DNA of 37,619 nt. Origin: Spirochaetaceae bacterium. Lineage in GTDB: Bacteria; Spirochaetota; Spirochaetia; DSM-27196; SLST01. This document shows positions 15,653 to 24,548 of the stretch, piece by piece. Below the pieces are notes generated by a model. The model had not been told where the DNA came from. It saw only the letters and a program-made list of their open reading frames with translations, and ran no database searches. Within the stretch, counting starts at the first letter, position 1; each line of letters starts with the position of its first letter. The translations under genes were made by a program, and so were the position numbers. The stretch spans positions 1 through 37,619 of the forward strand of contig RECL01000266.1 of assembly GCA_007694025.1 (NCBI GenBank). Reading direction: 5' to 3'.

Positions 15653-17071
15653 ATGGTGAACCGCCGGCTCTCCACGACCCGTCAACTCCTCTTTCTTGCG
15701 CTCATCGCAGCACTGACGGGCATCGTATCAGCGCAGACCTCCGGCACAGCGGATCAGAGCCGGTCGACGATGGTCGCGCGACTGCGCGTTTCTATTCGAG
15801 AGCCGCAGATACGGCTCTCATGGGTGCCCGCCGACACCGCGGGCAACACGATCGTGTACCGCTCGACCACCGAGTTCGCAGACGACTCGTTCGAGCACGC
15901 GGAAGTCGTCGGTATAGTGGCAGCGGACGTATCGTCGTTCATCGACGTACCGCCGCAGGCGGGGTCGTATCACTACGCGGTCGTCGCGACCGACGCCGAC
16001 GGAACGCCCTTCCGGTCGATTGTTCCGGGGCGCAACTCAACACTGCGTCCGGTCGAGATCGCCGGACCGCCCGAGCTCGACGGTCCGGCGCGGATCACGT
16101 CGATCGCCGCAATAGCAACGCCTGAGGGCGCGGTCACCATCGCGATCGGCGCCGACCGGACCGACCGGATGATCGCGGTGTACCGGTCGACATCGCCGAT
16201 TCGGGTCGCGACAGACCTGGCCGGGGCGTCTATGTTCCGGCGTATCGACTCGCGGCTGGGGTCGATCGACGACCTGCCGGTACCCGGGATCGGGTACTAC
16301 TACGCGGCATTCGATGCGCAAGAGGTTCTCGACGGCACCGTGACGGTACGACCCGGAGAAAACGCGACGGTTCAGTCGGTTACGATCCCTCTGCCGGAGT
16401 CGGCTCGTCCGCCGACGCCGCGACCGGCCCCGGCGCGCGTAGCCGAACCGGCGGCGCCCGATAGCGACGTTGACGCCGACGGACGGCTCGCACCCGAACC
16501 TGACGCCGCACCCGAACCTGGAGTCGCGCCCCAACCGGAGGTCGACGCCGTGCAGCCGCCGACGGTCGTGACGCGGGGTATTCCACTGCCGTTCCTGCGG
16601 CCGCAGGCGGGCTTCACGACGGGAACCGCGCTGAGCGACCCGCGGCGGTTCCTGCCGGAGCCGGTTGCGGTTAGTGTCGATACCGAGCGCGCGATCGGCC
16701 GACTGATGGAACGAAGCGTGCCGGTCACGATACCCGAGGGCCCCCCGATTCTGCGCGAAGACCGTCTGGCCGATCCACAGGGCATCGAGTACAGGTTGCG
16801 AACGATCATCGACGGCCCGATCAGGCTCTTCGCGTGGGAAGAGGCGATCGAACAGATCGACGCGCTCGCGTCGCTACCGCTGCCGTCTGATCTGCGCGCG
16901 CGGACGCATTACTATCGGGGCCGGGCGCTGCATGCGATCGGCGAGCGGCGTGAGGCTCTGCTGGAGTTCCTGGTAGCCAGGGAGTACCACTACGCGGAGT
17001 CGCAGGCATGGATCCGCGTCATTCTGGCCGAACTCGCCGGTTCGGCTACAGCTTCTCAAACCGGATTCTGA
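15653..17071 (+). CDS. Exported hypothetical protein with FN3-like region and Pro-rich linker
   Basis: Signal peptide MVNRRLSTTRQLLFLALIAALTGIVSAQ; central APEPDAAPEPGVAPQPEV; helical C-terminus. Confidence 0.7.
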   Translation: MVNRRLSTTRQLLFLALIAALTGIVSAQTSGTADQSRSTMVARLRVSIREPQIRLSWVPADTAGNTIVYRSTTEFADDSFEHAEVVGIVAADVSSFIDVPPQAGSYHYAVVATDADGTPFRSIVPGRNSTLRPVEIAGPPELDGPARITSIAAIATPEGAVTIAIGADRTDRMIAVYRSTSPIRVATDLAGASMFRRIDSRLGSIDDLPVPGIGYYYAAFDAQEVLDGTVTVRPGENATVQSVTIPLPESARPPTPRPAPARVAEPAAPDSDVDADGRLAPEPDAAPEPGVAPQPEVDAVQPPTVVTRGIPLPFLRPQAGFTTGTALSDPRRFLPEPVAVSVDTERAIGRLMERSVPVTIPEGPPILREDRLADPQGIEYRLRTIIDGPIRLFAWEEAIEQIDALASLPLPSDLRARTHYYRGRALHAIGERREALLEFLVAREYHYAESQAWIRVILAELAGSATASQTGF

Positions 17072-19073
17072 TCGCCGCCTGCACGCGCGCGCCCGGGTCG
17101 ACGCTGAGCGCGAACCGCGGCACGATGCATGTACTCTGATACTCGACTATCCGGCCCTCCGTTCCGTTTTCGCCGGTTCGTCGGACGGTACGGACCGGAA
17201 AGCACCACGGGTCGCACTCGGGGAACGTCACGGTGATCGCAGTGTGATTCGCCAGATCCTCGATGCGAATCTCCGACACGGTCTCGTGCCGGTTGTCATC
17301 GGGGGCAACCTCCTGGAGCCGCCGGCGTCCACCGCGGACGAAGATCCGCTGACTGTCCGGATCGGCCGACTCGAACGCGAGGTTGATCTCCGGAGCAAAC
17401 AGACCCTCGAGTCTCGAGTCCCCGGTGCATCTGATCGTGTACTCCAGGTCGATGATACCGCGCTTGAACTCGTACCGCTTATCGAGCTCGACCGGCAGTC
17501 GGGCCTTGCCGTTCGCCCGCACGGAACCGGCGGCGGACAGATCGAGTCGCTGGGTGTCGCGCTTGCCGACCGACCGCGCGTACAGCGCGTCGGTGAAGTT
17601 ACCGAGCTCGGATGCGGTCCCCGCGATGAACTGCTCTACGGTCGTGTCCGACGAAAGGAAGTGGTCGACAAAGCCCCTGCGAGGATACCGGTCGTAGCCG
17701 AGCGCCTGGTCGTCGGTCGAGTGATAGCTCTCGCGTTGCCGTGAAAAGGTGTCGAGGTAGTTCCAGCTCGTCGGGAGGTAGTCGAGTTCGAACAGCATAC
17801 CGCCGACCTGATGGACGTACGCGTTGAGATCGGTACCCTGATAGAGGTACTCGTCGAGCCCGTCCATATCGAAGTCGACGGCTACGATCGACGGGCTGAA
17901 TATGCCACGCTCGCGGGTCTTCTTCTCCGCCTCGATCAGCGCGCGGTAGACCTGTTTGCGCAGGTGCCCCTGGTAGATCCCGCCGTGCTGTCCGTGCCAG
18001 TACGCGTTGTGGCACTGCCCGCGCCATAGCTCCTCGCGGGCGGCCTGCTTTCGGTACTTGTCGCCGCGGATCTGATTCACGAGCACGTGCGTATACTGCA
18101 TCTTCGCGTACATCTGGTTGCTTTCGGCGTACCTCGTGAGAAACTGCCGGAAGTGGCCGCCGATCATGTATCCGTTGCGGCCGTTGGACGCGTTGTCGCG
18201 TACGCTCGAGTAGGAGTCCTGCTGGTCGGGCGTCATCGACCAGTAGAGCAACTCCTCAGACCCCGCGGAGTGGAAGTAGGCGCGCCGACGCGGCCGACTC
18301 TCCTTCACGTACTGCGATGGGAGCCCGACCTCGATCCATTCCCGGTTCTCCTTGAGCAGCTCGACGAACTGCTCGAGCCATGGACTCGGTGGCGAAGGTC
18401 GCTCAGGCAGTCGTCGGCCCCCGTCGTCGATCAGGACGTGCACGCGCGACCCGTCATCGTCGCTTTGATCGCGCAGGTAATCGACGATACGCTCGGGCGG
18501 TTCGGTTCGTGCGAGGAGTTTGAGGTCGTGACAGACCGGGAACACAACGATGGTCTTGCCCTGATCCTCGGTGAGGCACGGACGACACAGGTCTTCGTCG
18601 CGCATCCCGGCGGTCAGGAAGTGGTAATCGTCAAGGAAGACGTATTCCATCCCGCTTGAGCGCAGCGTGCTCGCAAGACTCGGCTCCCATACATGCTCGG
18701 TTATCCACGTGCCACGAGGCCTGCGTCCGAACCGCTTGCGGAGATAGGTCGTGAGGCTTTCGATCTGTCCAAGCCGGTCGAGCCGTGGTATCAGGCTCAG
18801 AACCGGGTCGTAGAAGCCGCCGCCGAGGATCTCGCACTGCTTGCGGGTGATCATCTCCGACAGGACGTCGGTGTACTCGGAGTGGTGCTTCTCGAGCCAC
18901 TGCAGCAGCTGTCCGGAATAGTGCAGCGTCACAGGAATCTGGGGTGCATGGTAGAGCACGCGCAGGTAGGGCTTGAGCGAGGTCTGGTATACGTGTTCTA
19001 TCTCGTCATCGCTGGCTCCGACGGGCAGACTGTTCGTCGAACCAAGGATGAGCCTGGCCTTCTTCATCGCCAT
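17046..19073 (-). CDS. Glycoside hydrolase family 57 protein (4-alpha-glucanotransferase-like)
   Basis: TWITEHVWEPSLASTLRSSGMEYVFLDD (motif with nucleophile Glu), HVLIDDGG, HNAYWHGQHGGIYQGHLRKQVYRALI; C-terminal domains as in GH57 transferases. Confidence 0.88.
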   Translation of the reverse strand: MAMKKARLILGSTNSLPVGASDDEIEHVYQTSLKPYLRVLYHAPQIPVTLHYSGQLLQWLEKHHSEYTDVLSEMITRKQCEILGGGFYDPVLSLIPRLDRLGQIESLTTYLRKRFGRRPRGTWITEHVWEPSLASTLRSSGMEYVFLDDYHFLTAGMRDEDLCRPCLTEDQGKTIVVFPVCHDLKLLARTEPPERIVDYLRDQSDDDGSRVHVLIDDGGRRLPERPSPPSPWLEQFVELLKENREWIEVGLPSQYVKESRPRRRAYFHSAGSEELLYWSMTPDQQDSYSSVRDNASNGRNGYMIGGHFRQFLTRYAESNQMYAKMQYTHVLVNQIRGDKYRKQAAREELWRGQCHNAYWHGQHGGIYQGHLRKQVYRALIEAEKKTRERGIFSPSIVAVDFDMDGLDEYLYQGTDLNAYVHQVGGMLFELDYLPTSWNYLDTFSRQRESYHSTDDQALGYDRYPRRGFVDHFLSSDTTVEQFIAGTASELGNFTDALYARSVGKRDTQRLDLSAAGSVRANGKARLPVELDKRYEFKRGIIDLEYTIRCTGDSRLEGLFAPEINLAFESADPDSQRIFVRGGRRRLQEVAPDDNRHETVSEIRIEDLANHTAITVTFPECDPWCFPVRTVRRTGENGTEGRIVEYQSTCIVPRFALSVDPGARVQAAIRIRFEKL

Positions 19074-19174: not shown

Positions 19175-19765
19175 CTACTGGAGCAGGTTCGACAGGAATC
19201 CCTGGTCGAACGCCGCGAACGCGAGCGCGACGAGCCCGAGCGTGACGAACGTGATCGGCTTTCCGCGCAGACGAGCGGGCACCCACTCGGACTCGATCTG
19301 CGCGACGATCGACGCGACGATCGTCGCGACGAGCACGAAACCCACCCCGGCCGCGACCGCGGCAGCGATGCTGTGGGCGAACCCGAGTCCGACCTCGGCG
19401 ACGATCAGAGAGACCCCGAGCACCGCGCTGTTCACTGCCACAACCATCAGGTCATCCGATACAACCGCGTATACCGACGGCAGCGCTACACGCAACCCGT
19501 GATCGATTGCCGAGACGAGTCCATAGACCGTGAAGACGTAGACGAGAGTCCGGAGAAACCAGAGGCCGAGCGGACCGAGGATCAGGCTGCCCACCAGCCA
19601 CGTCGCGGCGGTCGTCACCGGCATCAGCACCGTCATGATCGCACCGACCCGCACTATGCGCCCCAGCGAGGCCTCGCCGTCGACGATCAGGCAGAAGCCC
19701 AGGAACCGGTCGAGCACGATGTTCGACGCCAGAACGAAGGTCAATACGACAGCGATCGTGCTCAC
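19175..19765 (-). CDS. rnfA: RnfA-like membrane subunit (one [2Fe-2S] Cys replaced by Ser)
   Basis: SNIVLDRFLGFCLIV...LRTLVYVFTVYGLVSAI...VAVNSAVLGVSLI aligns with RnfA NNFVLSRFLGIC / TTNCAVLGVAL patterns; 4-nt overlap with rnfE. Confidence 0.85.
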   Translation of the reverse strand: MSTIAVVLTFVLASNIVLDRFLGFCLIVDGEASLGRIVRVGAIMTVLMPVTTAATWLVGSLILGPLGLWFLRTLVYVFTVYGLVSAIDHGLRVALPSVYAVVSDDLMVVAVNSAVLGVSLIVAEVGLGFAHSIAAAVAAGVGFVLVATIVASIVAQIESEWVPARLRGKPITFVTLGLVALAFAAFDQGFLSNLLQ

Positions 19766-20457
19766 ATGCGCTCCAGGGACTCAGAGTCGAGCTGGGGGTC
19801 GGGACCAGGCTGGGGGTCGGGATCGGGCGCGTCGGCCGGGCGGGTCGCGCGAAGCACCCTTCGCGCATCGATCCACGCGTGAAGCGCCATGATGTATCCG
19901 ACCACAAGAAAAGCGCCGGCCGGAAGCGCGAACGCGGCGACACCGGATGGTTCGGCCGCGAATCGTATCACGCCGTCGAACGATCCGATCGCAAAGAGCG
20001 TCAGCGTGGCGCTTCCGATGATCTCGCGAACGGTGCCGATGAGGGTCAGGCCGAGCAGGAACCCTATGCCCGTCCCGACCGCATCGCGGACGATGTCACC
20101 GGCAGGCTCCCCGTCGGACCGGACGGCCGAGAACCCGCCGGTGAGGATGAGCGAGTTGATCGCAAGAAGCGGTACGTAGATGCCAAGCGCCGCGGAAAGG
20201 TCAGGAGCGTACGCCCGGACGATGAGATCGGCGATCGACACGAAACCGGCGACAACGGCAAGGACCACCGGAAAGCGGATACGCCGGTCGATCAACTCGC
20301 GCAGCAAAACAAGCGTGCCAGCGCTCAGGACCAGTACCAGCGTGAGCACGACGCCCAGGACCAGCGGGTAGATCGCGTGCGTCGCAACCGCGAGCGACGG
20401 ACACAGCCCCACCGTGAGTACGATAACGGGGTTCTCGCGGAAGACGCCGCGCGGCAT
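19762..20457 (-). CDS. rnfE: RnfE-like membrane subunit (one [2Fe-2S] Cys replaced by Ser)
   Basis: MPRGVFRENPVIVLTVGLCPSLAVATHA...GIYVPLLAINSLIL; start trimmed from 20649 to ATG 20457. Confidence 0.85.
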   Translation of the reverse strand: MPRGVFRENPVIVLTVGLCPSLAVATHAIYPLVLGVVLTLVLVLSAGTLVLLRELIDRRIRFPVVLAVVAGFVSIADLIVRAYAPDLSAALGIYVPLLAINSLILTGGFSAVRSDGEPAGDIVRDAVGTGIGFLLGLTLIGTVREIIGSATLTLFAIGSFDGVIRFAAEPSGVAAFALPAGAFLVVGYIMALHAWIDARRVLRATRPADAPDPDPQPGPDPQLDSESLERM

Positions 20458-20462
20458 GCCGG

Positions 20463-20615
20463 TCAACGGGCCCTCCACGCGACACGCGCAGCAGCTTCCA
20501 GTTCGGCCGTCGACTCCAGGCGCCCCGACAGCAGAAGCGCGACCAGCGAGATGATCAGCGCTACAATCACGACCACAAGGGTTACGGTACCGACCCTTTG
20601 AACGCTTTCGTTCAC
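20463..20615 (-). CDS. 50-aa single-TM microprotein in the rnfG position
   Basis: GTG start overlapping rnfD stop (GTGA). Manual translation: MNESVQRVGTVTLVVVIVALIISLVALLLSGRLESTAELEAAARVAWRAR*. Stop 5 nt upstream of rnfE ATG. Not in ORF track. Confidence 0.75.
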   Translation of the reverse strand: MNESVQRVGTVTLVVVIVALIISLVALLLSGRLESTAELEAAARVAWRAR

Positions 20616-21730
20616 GGTTTCCTCCCGGCGCCGGCAATCGCACGCACACGGCCTCCGGGGTCGCGGCGACGGCGAGTCCCGAATCGGCGCGGCCGCAACC
20701 CGCGGTTCAGAAGCGGCACAACGGTGTTCATGACCAGCACCGCAAACGCTCCGCTACCGGGGTACGCACCGTAGAAGCGGAACAGAAACGTGAGCGCGCC
20801 GGCTCCCGCTCCGTAGACTAGCATCCCCGTCCGGTTGGTCGGAGCGCTGCTCAGGTCGGGGGCCAGGTAGAACATCGCGAACACCACGCCGCCGGAAAGC
20901 GTATGGAACAGCACATCGCCGGCCATGTACCCGTCGCCGAACACCAACCCGCCGAAGACGCGTGTCACGATCGCGTACGACGCGAAGTAGGCGGCGGGGA
21001 TCTCCCAACGAATAACCCGCGTCGCGACCAGCGCGATAGTGCCGATCAGAAGCAGCGCGACCGCCCCCTCACCGATCGCGCCATCGACGTACCCCAGGAA
21101 GAGGTCGACATAGCCGCCCGGCAGGTTCGCGCCCACAACGGTCAGAACGCGTGCGTTCAACCAATCGGTCACCGACGCATCGACGCTCGAAACGGGGTAA
21201 CCGACCGCGCGCAACAGACCGACGGGTCCACCGACGGGGCCGGATGCGGTCTCGAGCGCGCCGCGCACGGTGGCAAGAACGGTGGCCGACGACTCCCCAT
21301 CGACTCCGGGTCCGATCATCTGACGATTCCAGGAGTAGAACGCAAAGACAAGCCCGCCGGCGGCGGCATTCATCCAGTTTCCGCCAAGGCCACCGAAGCT
21401 CCACTTGACGACGAGCATCGCGAAAATCGCGGCGGTCGCCGGCACGTGCAGACCGACCCAGGGCGGCATCGCCATCCCGATCAGCAACCCGACAAGCACG
21501 GCGCTACCGTCGCGTAGCGTCGGTCGACGCCGGATCAGGCCGATCACGCCTTCGCTGATGACAGCGGCACCGACCGCAACCATGATGATAAACAGCGCGG
21601 GTGTCCCGTACCGGTAGACTCCCCAGCCGGCTGCCGGCAGGAGCGACAGCGCGATTGCCCACATCATGCGGCCGGTCGTTGCCCGATCGTGAAACTGCGG
21701 CGGATTCGCCGACATGACCGTACCTCTCAT
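20612..21730 (-). CDS. rnfD: RnfD-like membrane subunit
   Basis: WSFGGLGGNWMNAAAGG, VDGESSATVLATV (flavinylation-like), YVDLFLGYVDGAIGEGAVALLLIG, FHTLSGGVVFAMFYLAPDLSSAP, YGAYPGSGAFAVLVMN. ATG overlaps rnfC stop; MSANPP at 21715 is an alternative start. Confidence 0.87.
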   Translation of the reverse strand: MRGTVMSANPPQFHDRATTGRMMWAIALSLLPAAGWGVYRYGTPALFIIMVAVGAAVISEGVIGLIRRRPTLRDGSAVLVGLLIGMAMPPWVGLHVPATAAIFAMLVVKWSFGGLGGNWMNAAAGGLVFAFYSWNRQMIGPGVDGESSATVLATVRGALETASGPVGGPVGLLRAVGYPVSSVDASVTDWLNARVLTVVGANLPGGYVDLFLGYVDGAIGEGAVALLLIGTIALVATRVIRWEIPAAYFASYAIVTRVFGGLVFGDGYMAGDVLFHTLSGGVVFAMFYLAPDLSSAPTNRTGMLVYGAGAGALTFLFRFYGAYPGSGAFAVLVMNTVVPLLNRGLRPRRFGTRRRRDPGGRVRAIAGAGRKP

Positions 21731-23034
21731 CGGTTCGCCTTACCGTTGCGTAACCCGTCGACGAGCGGGATCCGCGACGGGCAGACGTACCCGCACCCGC
21801 CGCACTCGGTACAATCGAAGAGCCCGTAGTCGACCGCATCGCCCGAGCGACCGTGAGCCACCAGCTTGTAGAGCTGCGCGGGATCGAGCCCCATCGGGCA
21901 CGCCTCGGCGCACCGACCGCACCGGATGCATCCAACGATCGGCGCCGCGTTCACTTCGGCCGCGGTCAGCACAAGGACGGCCGTCGTGTACTTGAGTACG
22001 GGAGTCGTCAGGTCCGTTGTGGCGTAGCCGCGTAACGGTCCACCGATGACGATCCGGGCGACCGGGTCGGTCACGCCGCCACATTCGGCAAGCAGGCCCC
22101 CGATCGGGGTCCCGATACGCACCTTGATGTTCCCCGGCCGGGCGACGCCTCTCCCGGCCACGGTGACGACCCGCTCGTAGAGCGGCTTGCGGGTGACGAC
22201 GGCCTCCCAGATCGCGTAGAGCGTCGCGGCCGAAATCGTTACGCAGCCGACATCAATCGCGTGCCCATCAGACGGCACTTCCAGACCCGTGACCGCGCGG
22301 ATGAGCTGCCGTTCGTCACCCTGCGGGTACTTGACCGACAGCCGCACGTAGTCGCGTCGGCGACCGTCGTTGTCGTGTGCCCGCATGCGTCGCATAGCAT
22401 CCCGCTTGTCCGCGCCGATTCCGACCGCGACGCGGTCGGGTGCGAGCAGTCGCTCGACGATCTGAAGCCCCTCGAAGATCTCGGCAGGGTGCTCGACCAT
22501 CAGCCGGTGATCGGCACAGACGTACGGCTCGCTCTCTGCACCGTTGACGATCAGCCACCGGCACGAAGCAGCCGCCGTGGCGTCGATCGCCGCGTGCGTC
22601 GGCTGTGATACGCCCGACATACCAACCACGCCTGCGTCCTCTATGAGCCGAAGGAGCGTACCCGGGCGTAACGTCTTCCATTCATGCCTCGCAAGGACCT
22701 TTCCCAGGCGGTCAAAGGAACCGGCAAGGTCGATGACTGCCGCCGTGGAGATGACGCCGTCGGGAAGCGTCACGGGGCGAATCTCACGGACCAGCCCGGG
22801 AATCGGGCTGTGCACGTGAGCGCAGAGGTCGCCGACCGCCCGACCGATTCGCGTGCCCTCGCCGACCCTGTCGCCGGGAGCCACGCACAGTTCGGCGTCG
22901 GGACCGTGCGACTGCCGTAGCGGGACGATCGAGACCGCCGGAAGGATCGCGTTCCTGATCGCGCGCCGGTGCGCCGCGTGCTTGTGGTGGACCGGATAGA
23001 GACCCCCGACCGGAAAGGTTGCCGTACGCATCAT
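21727..23034 (-). CDS. rnfC: RnfC-like subunit with two [4Fe-4S] motifs
   Basis: GGLYPVHHKH, LIVNGAESEPYVCADHRLM, VKYPQGDERQLIRAVTGLEVPSDG, CIRCGRCAEACP and CTECGGCGYVCP. Confidence 0.9.
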   Translation of the reverse strand: MMRTATFPVGGLYPVHHKHAAHRRAIRNAILPAVSIVPLRQSHGPDAELCVAPGDRVGEGTRIGRAVGDLCAHVHSPIPGLVREIRPVTLPDGVISTAAVIDLAGSFDRLGKVLARHEWKTLRPGTLLRLIEDAGVVGMSGVSQPTHAAIDATAAASCRWLIVNGAESEPYVCADHRLMVEHPAEIFEGLQIVERLLAPDRVAVGIGADKRDAMRRMRAHDNDGRRRDYVRLSVKYPQGDERQLIRAVTGLEVPSDGHAIDVGCVTISAATLYAIWEAVVTRKPLYERVVTVAGRGVARPGNIKVRIGTPIGGLLAECGGVTDPVARIVIGGPLRGYATTDLTTPVLKYTTAVLVLTAAEVNAAPIVGCIRCGRCAEACPMGLDPAQLYKLVAHGRSGDAVDYGLFDCTECGGCGYVCPSRIPLVDGLRNGKANR

Positions 23035-24548
23035 GCCACGAGCCTTCGACGGCGCAGAGCATCAAGAAGGCTCGAATGGAACCTGTATCGCAACGGTCGG
23101 ATTGGTGCGAGTATCAGGAGTGGCAGCGACGTCAGGAGAATGTACATAGCGTGAAGCACGATGTGCGGGTACCGCGAGTATAGTGCGTCGGTCGGTGTCA
23201 GAACAACCCCCACGGGTCGCCCGAACGACGCGAGCATCGAAACGATCCCGCCAGGAGCCGAGCCGATCGCGTGATCGATCCAGCTCTGATCGAACGTCGC
23301 GACGGTCTCGCGAAAGCTCGAGTACGACCCGTCCGCCTCTTCGCGAAACCGGTTCAGCGTGACCACCGTCCCGGGCGCCGGGAAAGCATACGCGTAACCG
23401 TACGCGAGTGCCTCCTGGTACGCGCGGTGCGCGATGTAGTCGGCGATGCTCGGTAACTCGAAGCGGGCATCCGACCAGAGACGCAGCAGGTCCTCATGGT
23501 CGAATCCAGCCGCGCCAGCCGCCTCGACAACGGGTCGACGGACCGGGGCATCGGGCATGAGTCGATCGACGATCGGCGGCAGTACGAGCAACAGGGTCCA
23601 CAGCGCGGGCAACCAGCGCTCGAGGCCTCCGAGACCACGGTGTGAGCGCAGGATTGACACGGGCACGAACGGCCGATGCCCGTCGTCATGGCGCCGTGCC
23701 GCAGCGATCAAATGCGCCACAGAGCGGGCAAGAACGAGCACCGCGCCGGCTCCGCTCGTACCAATCAGGTACGCAACAAGCGCGCGCCCACCCGCCACGG
23801 CGACCACGTAGACGCCCGACAGGCCGACCACCGCGGCGACCATCGCGACCGCGCGCACCGACACGAGCGCGACCACGTCGGACCTTCGGGCGCGCTCGTC
23901 CCGATCGATTCTGTGCCCGACGGCCGTCGATGCAAACGTGACGGCCGCGGCAACCGCGGCGGCGAGCGACCCGGTAGCGATCACCGGTACGAGCGGAACG
24001 GCCAGCGCGAGAACCACCACTCGGCCGCGTCCGTAGAGCACGGCGGTGCCTCCGACGACGAGCGCGAACAGTGCGACCGACAACGCGTACGGAACAGCGT
24101 ACCATTCGGCGACCCGGCTTCCCGAACCAAGCACATCGCGCACAAACCGGTTCGCGTTCCACAAGGTTCCGGGAATCCGCGCGTAGAGCGCGTTCGCGCC
24201 ATCGATCACGAAGTACAGACCAAGGGCCGTGATGAACGGATCGCGACGCGGATCGAGCGGATCGAGCCGGGTCAGCGCCGCCGGAAGCGACACCGCGTCG
24301 ACCCCGTCGAACCTGCTCACAAGCACCTTCGTCGTGTGCGGTGCGACGATGTGGTCGACTCCGGCGGCGGCCAGGAGCGCAGCGGCTTCGTCGTGACTCA
24401 GCGGCGTCACCACCGTGAGGTACGGATCGAGCGGCTGCGAGCGCCGGTACAGCGATGGAACGATAGCGACCGCGGTCACCGCGAACAGCAGGACGACCGA
24501 AGAGAGGCACACGATGAGTGTCTGGAGCGCAGGGAACCGGTCGATCAC
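23031..24548 (-). CDS. Multi-pass membrane protein of unknown function, coupled to rnfC
   Basis: 505 aa with multiple hydrophobic segments; 4-nt overlaps with both the upstream DUF212 gene and downstream rnfC. Confidence 0.75.
   Translation of the reverse strand: MIDRFPALQTLIVCLSSVVLLFAVTAVAIVPSLYRRSQPLDPYLTVVTPLSHDEAAALLAAAGVDHIVAPHTTKVLVSRFDGVDAVSLPAALTRLDPLDPRRDPFITALGLYFVIDGANALYARIPGTLWNANRFVRDVLGSGSRVAEWYAVPYALSVALFALVVGGTAVLYGRGRVVVLALAVPLVPVIATGSLAAAVAAAVTFASTAVGHRIDRDERARRSDVVALVSVRAVAMVAAVVGLSGVYVVAVAGGRALVAYLIGTSGAGAVLVLARSVAHLIAAARRHDDGHRPFVPVSILRSHRGLGGLERWLPALWTLLLVLPPIVDRLMPDAPVRRPVVEAAGAAGFDHEDLLRLWSDARFELPSIADYIAHRAYQEALAYGYAYAFPAPGTVVTLNRFREEADGSYSSFRETVATFDQSWIDHAIGSAPGGIVSMLASFGRPVGVVLTPTDALYSRYPHIVLHAMYILLTSLPLLILAPIRPLRYRFHSSLLDALRRRRLVA

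Follow-up and report, generated by a model that had tools for sequence, protein, structure and literature searches.

Sequence comparisons indicate that the Rnf operon of Spirochaetes, ordered U-rnfC-D-G-E-A-B-GH57 in its complete form, is being dismantled within one fast-evolving clade. We analyzed a copy from this clade carried on a 37,619-nucleotide stretch of DNA from a Spirochaetaceae bacterium (contig RECL01000266.1), hereafter called the window. In it the place of rnfG, between rnfD and rnfE, is taken by a 50-codon open reading frame, X, which is most likely the membrane-anchor helix of RnfG stripped of its flavin domain. Taken as a whole, the explanation that we favor, and hold to be fairly probable, is that X is a leftover of RnfG in a dismantled Rnf complex that keeps the NADH-RnfC-RnfD arm. 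Three elements of this picture, namely the loss of rnfB, the replacement of two cysteines by serine and the presence of a complete second Rnf with its own RnfG, had been overlooked in the first-pass annotation of this DNA.

Table 1. Features of the Rnf operon in the window (positions are those of the window).
Feature	Position	Strand	Evidence and remarks
U, 505-aa membrane protein	23031..24548	-	Upstream of rnfC in many spirochaetes
rnfC	21727..23034	-	NADH/FMN motif preserved, as are the two 4Fe-4S motifs
rnfD	20612..21730	-	Pfam/NCBIfam and solved Rnf chains; FMN threonine T150 (SATVLA) kept; N121 and D292 align with the riboflavin ligands of A. woodii RnfD
Shine-Dalgarno GGGAGG	20621..20626	-	Sequence; 5 nt 5' of the X GTG, within the rnfD 3' end
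X, 50-aa single-helix ORF in place of rnfG (putative remnant of the RnfG anchor helix)	20463..20615	-	GTG start; sequence, relatives, alignment
rnfE, from inferred TTG	19762..20466	-	C19 kept; A. woodii C108 position is Ser102 (numbered from ATG 20457)
rnfA	19175..19765	-	C25 kept; C113 to Ser, T110 to Ala, K32 to Ala, R154 to Val
GH57 alpha-amylase/4-alpha-glucanotransferase	17046..19073	-	Directly after rnfA here, after rnfB in intact operons; ATG at 19073 read from sequence

A small open reading frame in the rnfG slot

The first-pass annotation had drawn attention to a GTG-initiated frame of 50 codons between rnfD and rnfE, and this frame is indeed present (Table 1), its start overlapping the rnfD stop in the sequence GTGA. 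When the 114 open reading frames of 40-70 codons in the window were scanned, X alone had a Shine-Dalgarno motif and X alone had a 19-residue segment with a mean Kyte-Doolittle value above 2.5; these two properties rule it out as a chance frame. The hydrophobic segment, whose mean value is 3.35, is a predicted single N-terminal membrane helix, as in RnfG. X matches no family in Pfam or NCBIfam. The FMN_bind domain (PF04205) is absent from it by Pfam search, as are the flavinylation motif [ST]GA[ST]xT and the ETPGLG motif, both present in same-family rnfG; X stops short of the domain that bears them.

The X stop had also been placed 5 nt before the ATG of rnfE. This holds for the window; however, the ATG is not conserved, the codon being CTG in the sister genome (G004), and rnfE for that reason more likely begins at the TTG at 20466, which overlaps the X stop (TTGA) and is preceded by GGAGGG. 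With rnfE starting there, X would be coupled at both ends, and it is probably translated through coupling to rnfD and rnfE.

Gene content and cofactor sites of the window operon

Pfam and NCBIfam matches and comparison with solved Rnf chains confirm the identities of RnfC, RnfD, RnfE and RnfA. The operon has no rnfB, GH57 following rnfA directly, and the sole rnfB above the cut-off in the window genome belongs to the other Rnf operon, on contig C242. At the RnfA/E [2Fe-2S] site, the window copy has serine in place of two of the four cysteines (RnfA C113S and RnfE C108S, as aligned to 9eri_A and 9eri_E), and the position of A. woodii RnfE E115 falls in a gap of the family alignment; in the cryo-EM structure from A. 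woodii the cluster is held by RnfA C25 and C113 and RnfE C25 and C108 (PMC11889175). RnfD has by alignment the predicted covalent FMN threonine and riboflavin ligands, T150, N121 and D292; the A. woodii FMN sites are RnfG T185 and RnfD T156, with RnfD N123 and D249 at the riboflavin (PMC11889175). The window RnfD is a single PF03116 protein, with no fusion to an NqrF-type NAD-binding domain (PF00175). A. woodii strains mutated in the [2Fe-2S] cysteines, in the FMN residues of RnfG or in the riboflavin ligands show no ferredoxin:NAD+ activity (PMC11889175). Since the U-shaped electron path of the window complex is interrupted in several places on its ferredoxin side and preserved on its NADH side, the complex is unlikely to have this activity.

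Two flanking genes call for comment. U matches no Pfam or NCBIfam family and precedes rnfC in about 50 spirochaete loci, complete operons included; its AF2 model (pLDDT 84.7) bears a weak Foldseek similarity to RND/SecDF proteins. We considered U as a substitute electron carrier and rejected the idea, given that it matches no cofactor family and also accompanies complete Rnf operons. The GH57 gene, which is 4-alpha-glucanotransferase-like, keeps its linkage with the rnf operon across Spirochaetes.

Rnf genes elsewhere in the host genome

The host is a salt-lake spirochaete, and the window Rnf is the second copy in its genome. A complete canonical Rnf, including RnfG and RnfB, is encoded on contig C242, and an Nqr set including NqrC on contig C89. 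A further contig (C311, locus L001) encodes a fusion of an RnfD-like protein with two FMN_bind domains; the next two genes encode small membrane proteins resembling degraded RnfE and RnfA. Judging from its set of subunits, the canonical Rnf on C242 can carry ferredoxin:NAD+ chemistry. An rnfB elsewhere in the genome goes along with operon reduction: rnfB occurs outside the operon in 15 of the 20 genomes with a reduced operon versus 2 of the 17 with an intact one, in a count with contigs assigned by hand and a Fisher p of 1.9e-4 that ignores relatedness. Redundancy afforded by a second Rnf is likely to have been a permissive condition for operon reduction.

The operon in relatives

A scan of named genomes yielded 80 loci; one is titled simply "bacterium", and the others all have titles of the Spirochaetes type. 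The intact order is found in dozens of Spirochaetes, U being missing in some lineages. Departures from it take several forms. In the two genomes with X (the window genome, G000, and G004) the operon lacks rnfB and two of the cysteines are lost. Three other genomes of the window genus (L041, L042 and L047) also lack rnfB in the operon and have no gene between rnfD and rnfE; all four cysteines are kept. RnfG is partly degraded in L051, L053, L059, L061 and L080 of the same clade and gone from L063, L065, L067, L083 and L087, and the RnfG proteins tested from L058, L072, L091, L095 and L098 give no FMN_bind match. The E-values for this domain form a graded series: 1.8e-11, 2e-6, about 0.01, then none. 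At L029, L030 and L031, GH57 comes directly after rnfC-rnfD, the interval being devoid of rnfG, E, A and B. Throughout, the 4Fe-4S motifs of RnfC are kept, and so, nearly always, are the flavin sites of RnfD. A search of the literature, with most subscription papers outside its scope, found no account of Rnf operons without rnfG.

In a tree built from RnfC, RnfD, RnfE and RnfA, the reduced forms fall in one derived, long-branched clade (support 1.00). The window pair adjoins L063/L065 (0.91) and then L041/L042/L047 (0.68), in an internal order that is uncertain because the branches are long. The flavin-less RnfG of L091 gave a confident structural model, and its five best Foldseek matches are all RnfG (probability 0.99-1.00), a result partly prompted by the intact RnfG rows in the alignment used for modeling. 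The match suggests that the clade includes RnfG proteins that bear the anchor and lack the flavin motif.

Other peculiarities were noted along the way. Eight loci (L058, L072, L076, L091, L095, L098, L100 and L108) have proteins of about 150-183 residues in the RnfG slot, mostly without FMN_bind motifs. Where their contigs extend far enough, the rnfB slot holds a divergent Fe-S protein. The RnfC of L098 and L100 is without the usual EPYL NADH/FMN motif, and the RnfD flavin threonine is serine in L031.

X as a probable remnant of RnfG

Genomes of the same family carry full-length rnfG at the position of X, so that X is best read as the remnant of a deletion. The first-pass annotation had named a local deletion as the alternative to its own proposal, and on this point the relatives bear the alternative out. 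Of 25 relatives checked, 16 have an rnfG that begins with the same 4-nt overlap with rnfD as X does. In a MAFFT alignment, X matches up with the anchor and linker helix of RnfG without any gap. With a profile of the RnfG N-terminus, X ranks in the top 0.4% or better against 258 unrelated transmembrane segments, and 6-13% of block-shuffled versions of X score equally; as hydrophobic composition itself reaches such scores, homology to RnfG is unprovable by sequence alone. The earlier suggestion that X is the RnfG anchor helix kept without its flavin domain is thus upheld by slot, start overlap and alignment, and falls short of proof in sequence homology. The companion suggestion, that the membrane core requires X for its packing, finds no support: L041, L042 and L047, in the same genus, and L063 and L065, of a probable sister clade, have neither RnfG nor X, and the clean D-E junctions within the genus rule out a general packing requirement.

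Conservation of X in relatives, which the first-pass annotation had proposed as a check, was sought in 46 genomes of the order. The helix and the frame are kept in the sister genome, G004; in the remaining genomes matches are at chance level. Between G000 and G004, a stretch of 32 helix-core codons, picked after inspection, differs by 4 synonymous substitutions and no nonsynonymous one, the indel in X amounts to exactly one codon and is in frame, and the Shine-Dalgarno sequence and both junctions are preserved. Over its whole length X has a dN/dS of about 0.59, from which we take its ends to be loosely constrained; for RnfC, D, E and A the same genome pair gives 0.11, 0.14, 0.25 and 0.24, X and RnfA/E thus evolving faster than RnfC and RnfD. 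By the helix-core counts, the helix of X looks to be under constraint.

Alternative explanations

Some of these observations sit less well with the favored explanation. The faster evolution of X and RnfA/E also fits simple decay, X is found in two genomes only, and its homology to RnfG is not shown by sequence alone. One could envision X as a functionless scar of RnfG in a decaying operon, whether or not it is translated, short-lived and on its way to a clean D-E junction of the kind already seen in its congeners. Its narrow distribution, its poorly conserved ends and its overall dN/dS would all agree with such a fate. However, the helix core is free of nonsynonymous changes, the indel is in frame, and the Shine-Dalgarno sequence and both junctions are preserved in both genomes, and we consider this reading unlikely, if still to be reckoned with. 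That X is instead an unrelated new small membrane protein, born between rnfD and rnfE after a clean loss of rnfG, draws on the scores of the shuffled sequences and on the empty slot in close relatives; against this, the start position, the register and the N-terminal length of X match those of RnfG in a gap-free alignment, and we deem such an origin improbable.

Much the same can be said of a scheme in which X anchors a dock and the full circuit runs with RnfG (and RnfB) function provided in trans, either from the canonical Rnf or from another FMN_bind protein of the cell. The genome encodes suitable donors in the RnfG and RnfB of C242, the NqrC of C89 and the double FMN_bind protein of C311, but the serines at RnfA C113 and RnfE C108 would break the [2Fe-2S] step whatever the supply of RnfG, which leaves the scheme very improbable. 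Lastly, an assembly or frame error might conceal a full rnfG in what is a fragmented draft of 449 contigs. We give this scarcely any credence: the interval between X and rnfE is too small for the flavin domain in any frame, and G004 (locus L044), 94% identical in RnfD, has the same structure with substitutions of its own, which rules out misassembly.

Discussion

Our preferred explanation, that X is an RnfG leftover in a dismantled complex, would run as follows. The flavin domain of RnfG was presumably deleted and its N-terminal membrane anchor kept, together with the start of the linker helix, as X. The window copy has also lost RnfB and two of the [2Fe-2S] cysteines, and the canonical second Rnf would carry ferredoxin:NAD+ chemistry. 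What remains would most likely be the NADH-RnfC-RnfD arm, which might give electrons to the periplasmic side, or take them from it, through some partner. X itself may serve as a filler helix in the RnfA/E cavity, optional for the complex. A one-way function of the arm is plausible, and perhaps the complex exports electrons to the periplasm.

It is tempting to go further and to regard the window complex as half an Rnf, acting as an NADH-RnfC-RnfD electron exporter or as a periplasmic redox sensor. The complex would have shed its ferredoxin arm, its sodium-pumping redox gate and the flavin of RnfG, X and RnfA/E would be kept as a structural scaffold, and the clade would represent a stepwise series leading to RnfC-RnfD alone. 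We offer this as a tentative idea, more likely wrong than right.

Structural and mutant work has shown that Rnf is inactive without the flavin of RnfG, without RnfB or without the [2Fe-2S] cluster of RnfA/E. With its stepwise loss of these parts and its retention of RnfC and RnfD, the clade amounts to a dissection of the machine carried out by nature, and it opens to testing the capacities of the NADH-RnfC-RnfD arm alone, the role of the RnfG anchor without its flavin and the repurposing of a redundant respiratory complex. Annotation pipelines probably label the window operon as an Rnf pump, a label that is likely wrong.

Comparison with known systems brings out what has been kept and what has gone. 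With the Rnf complex (RnfABCDGE) the window copy shares RnfC, D, E and A in Rnf order, the RnfC motifs and the RnfD flavin sites; it differs in having no RnfB and no RnfG flavin domain and in the loss of two of the four [2Fe-2S] cysteines. X shares with the anchor (TM1) of RnfG (FMN_bind, PF04205) the slot between rnfD and rnfE, the start position and a single N-terminal helix followed by a short charged stretch, whereas RnfG has about 190 residues with an FMN_bind domain and a flavinylation threonine, and X has 50 residues and neither. A precedent for an Rnf that loses rnfB is Na+-NQR, proposed to derive from the rnf operon after duplication and rnfB loss (PMC4014512); Na+-NQR, however, kept NqrC and recruited NqrF, whereas nothing recruited is seen in the window operon. 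A further comparison is with the Nqr/Rnf-like two-subunit systems, for which a one-way transfer from NAD(P)H to the periplasm through an NqrB/RnfD-type subunit has been proposed (PMC8238504, PMC10979944). Those systems have an NqrF-type fusion and an NqrC/RnfG-like flavoprotein, whereas the window operon has a separate RnfC and no such flavoprotein.
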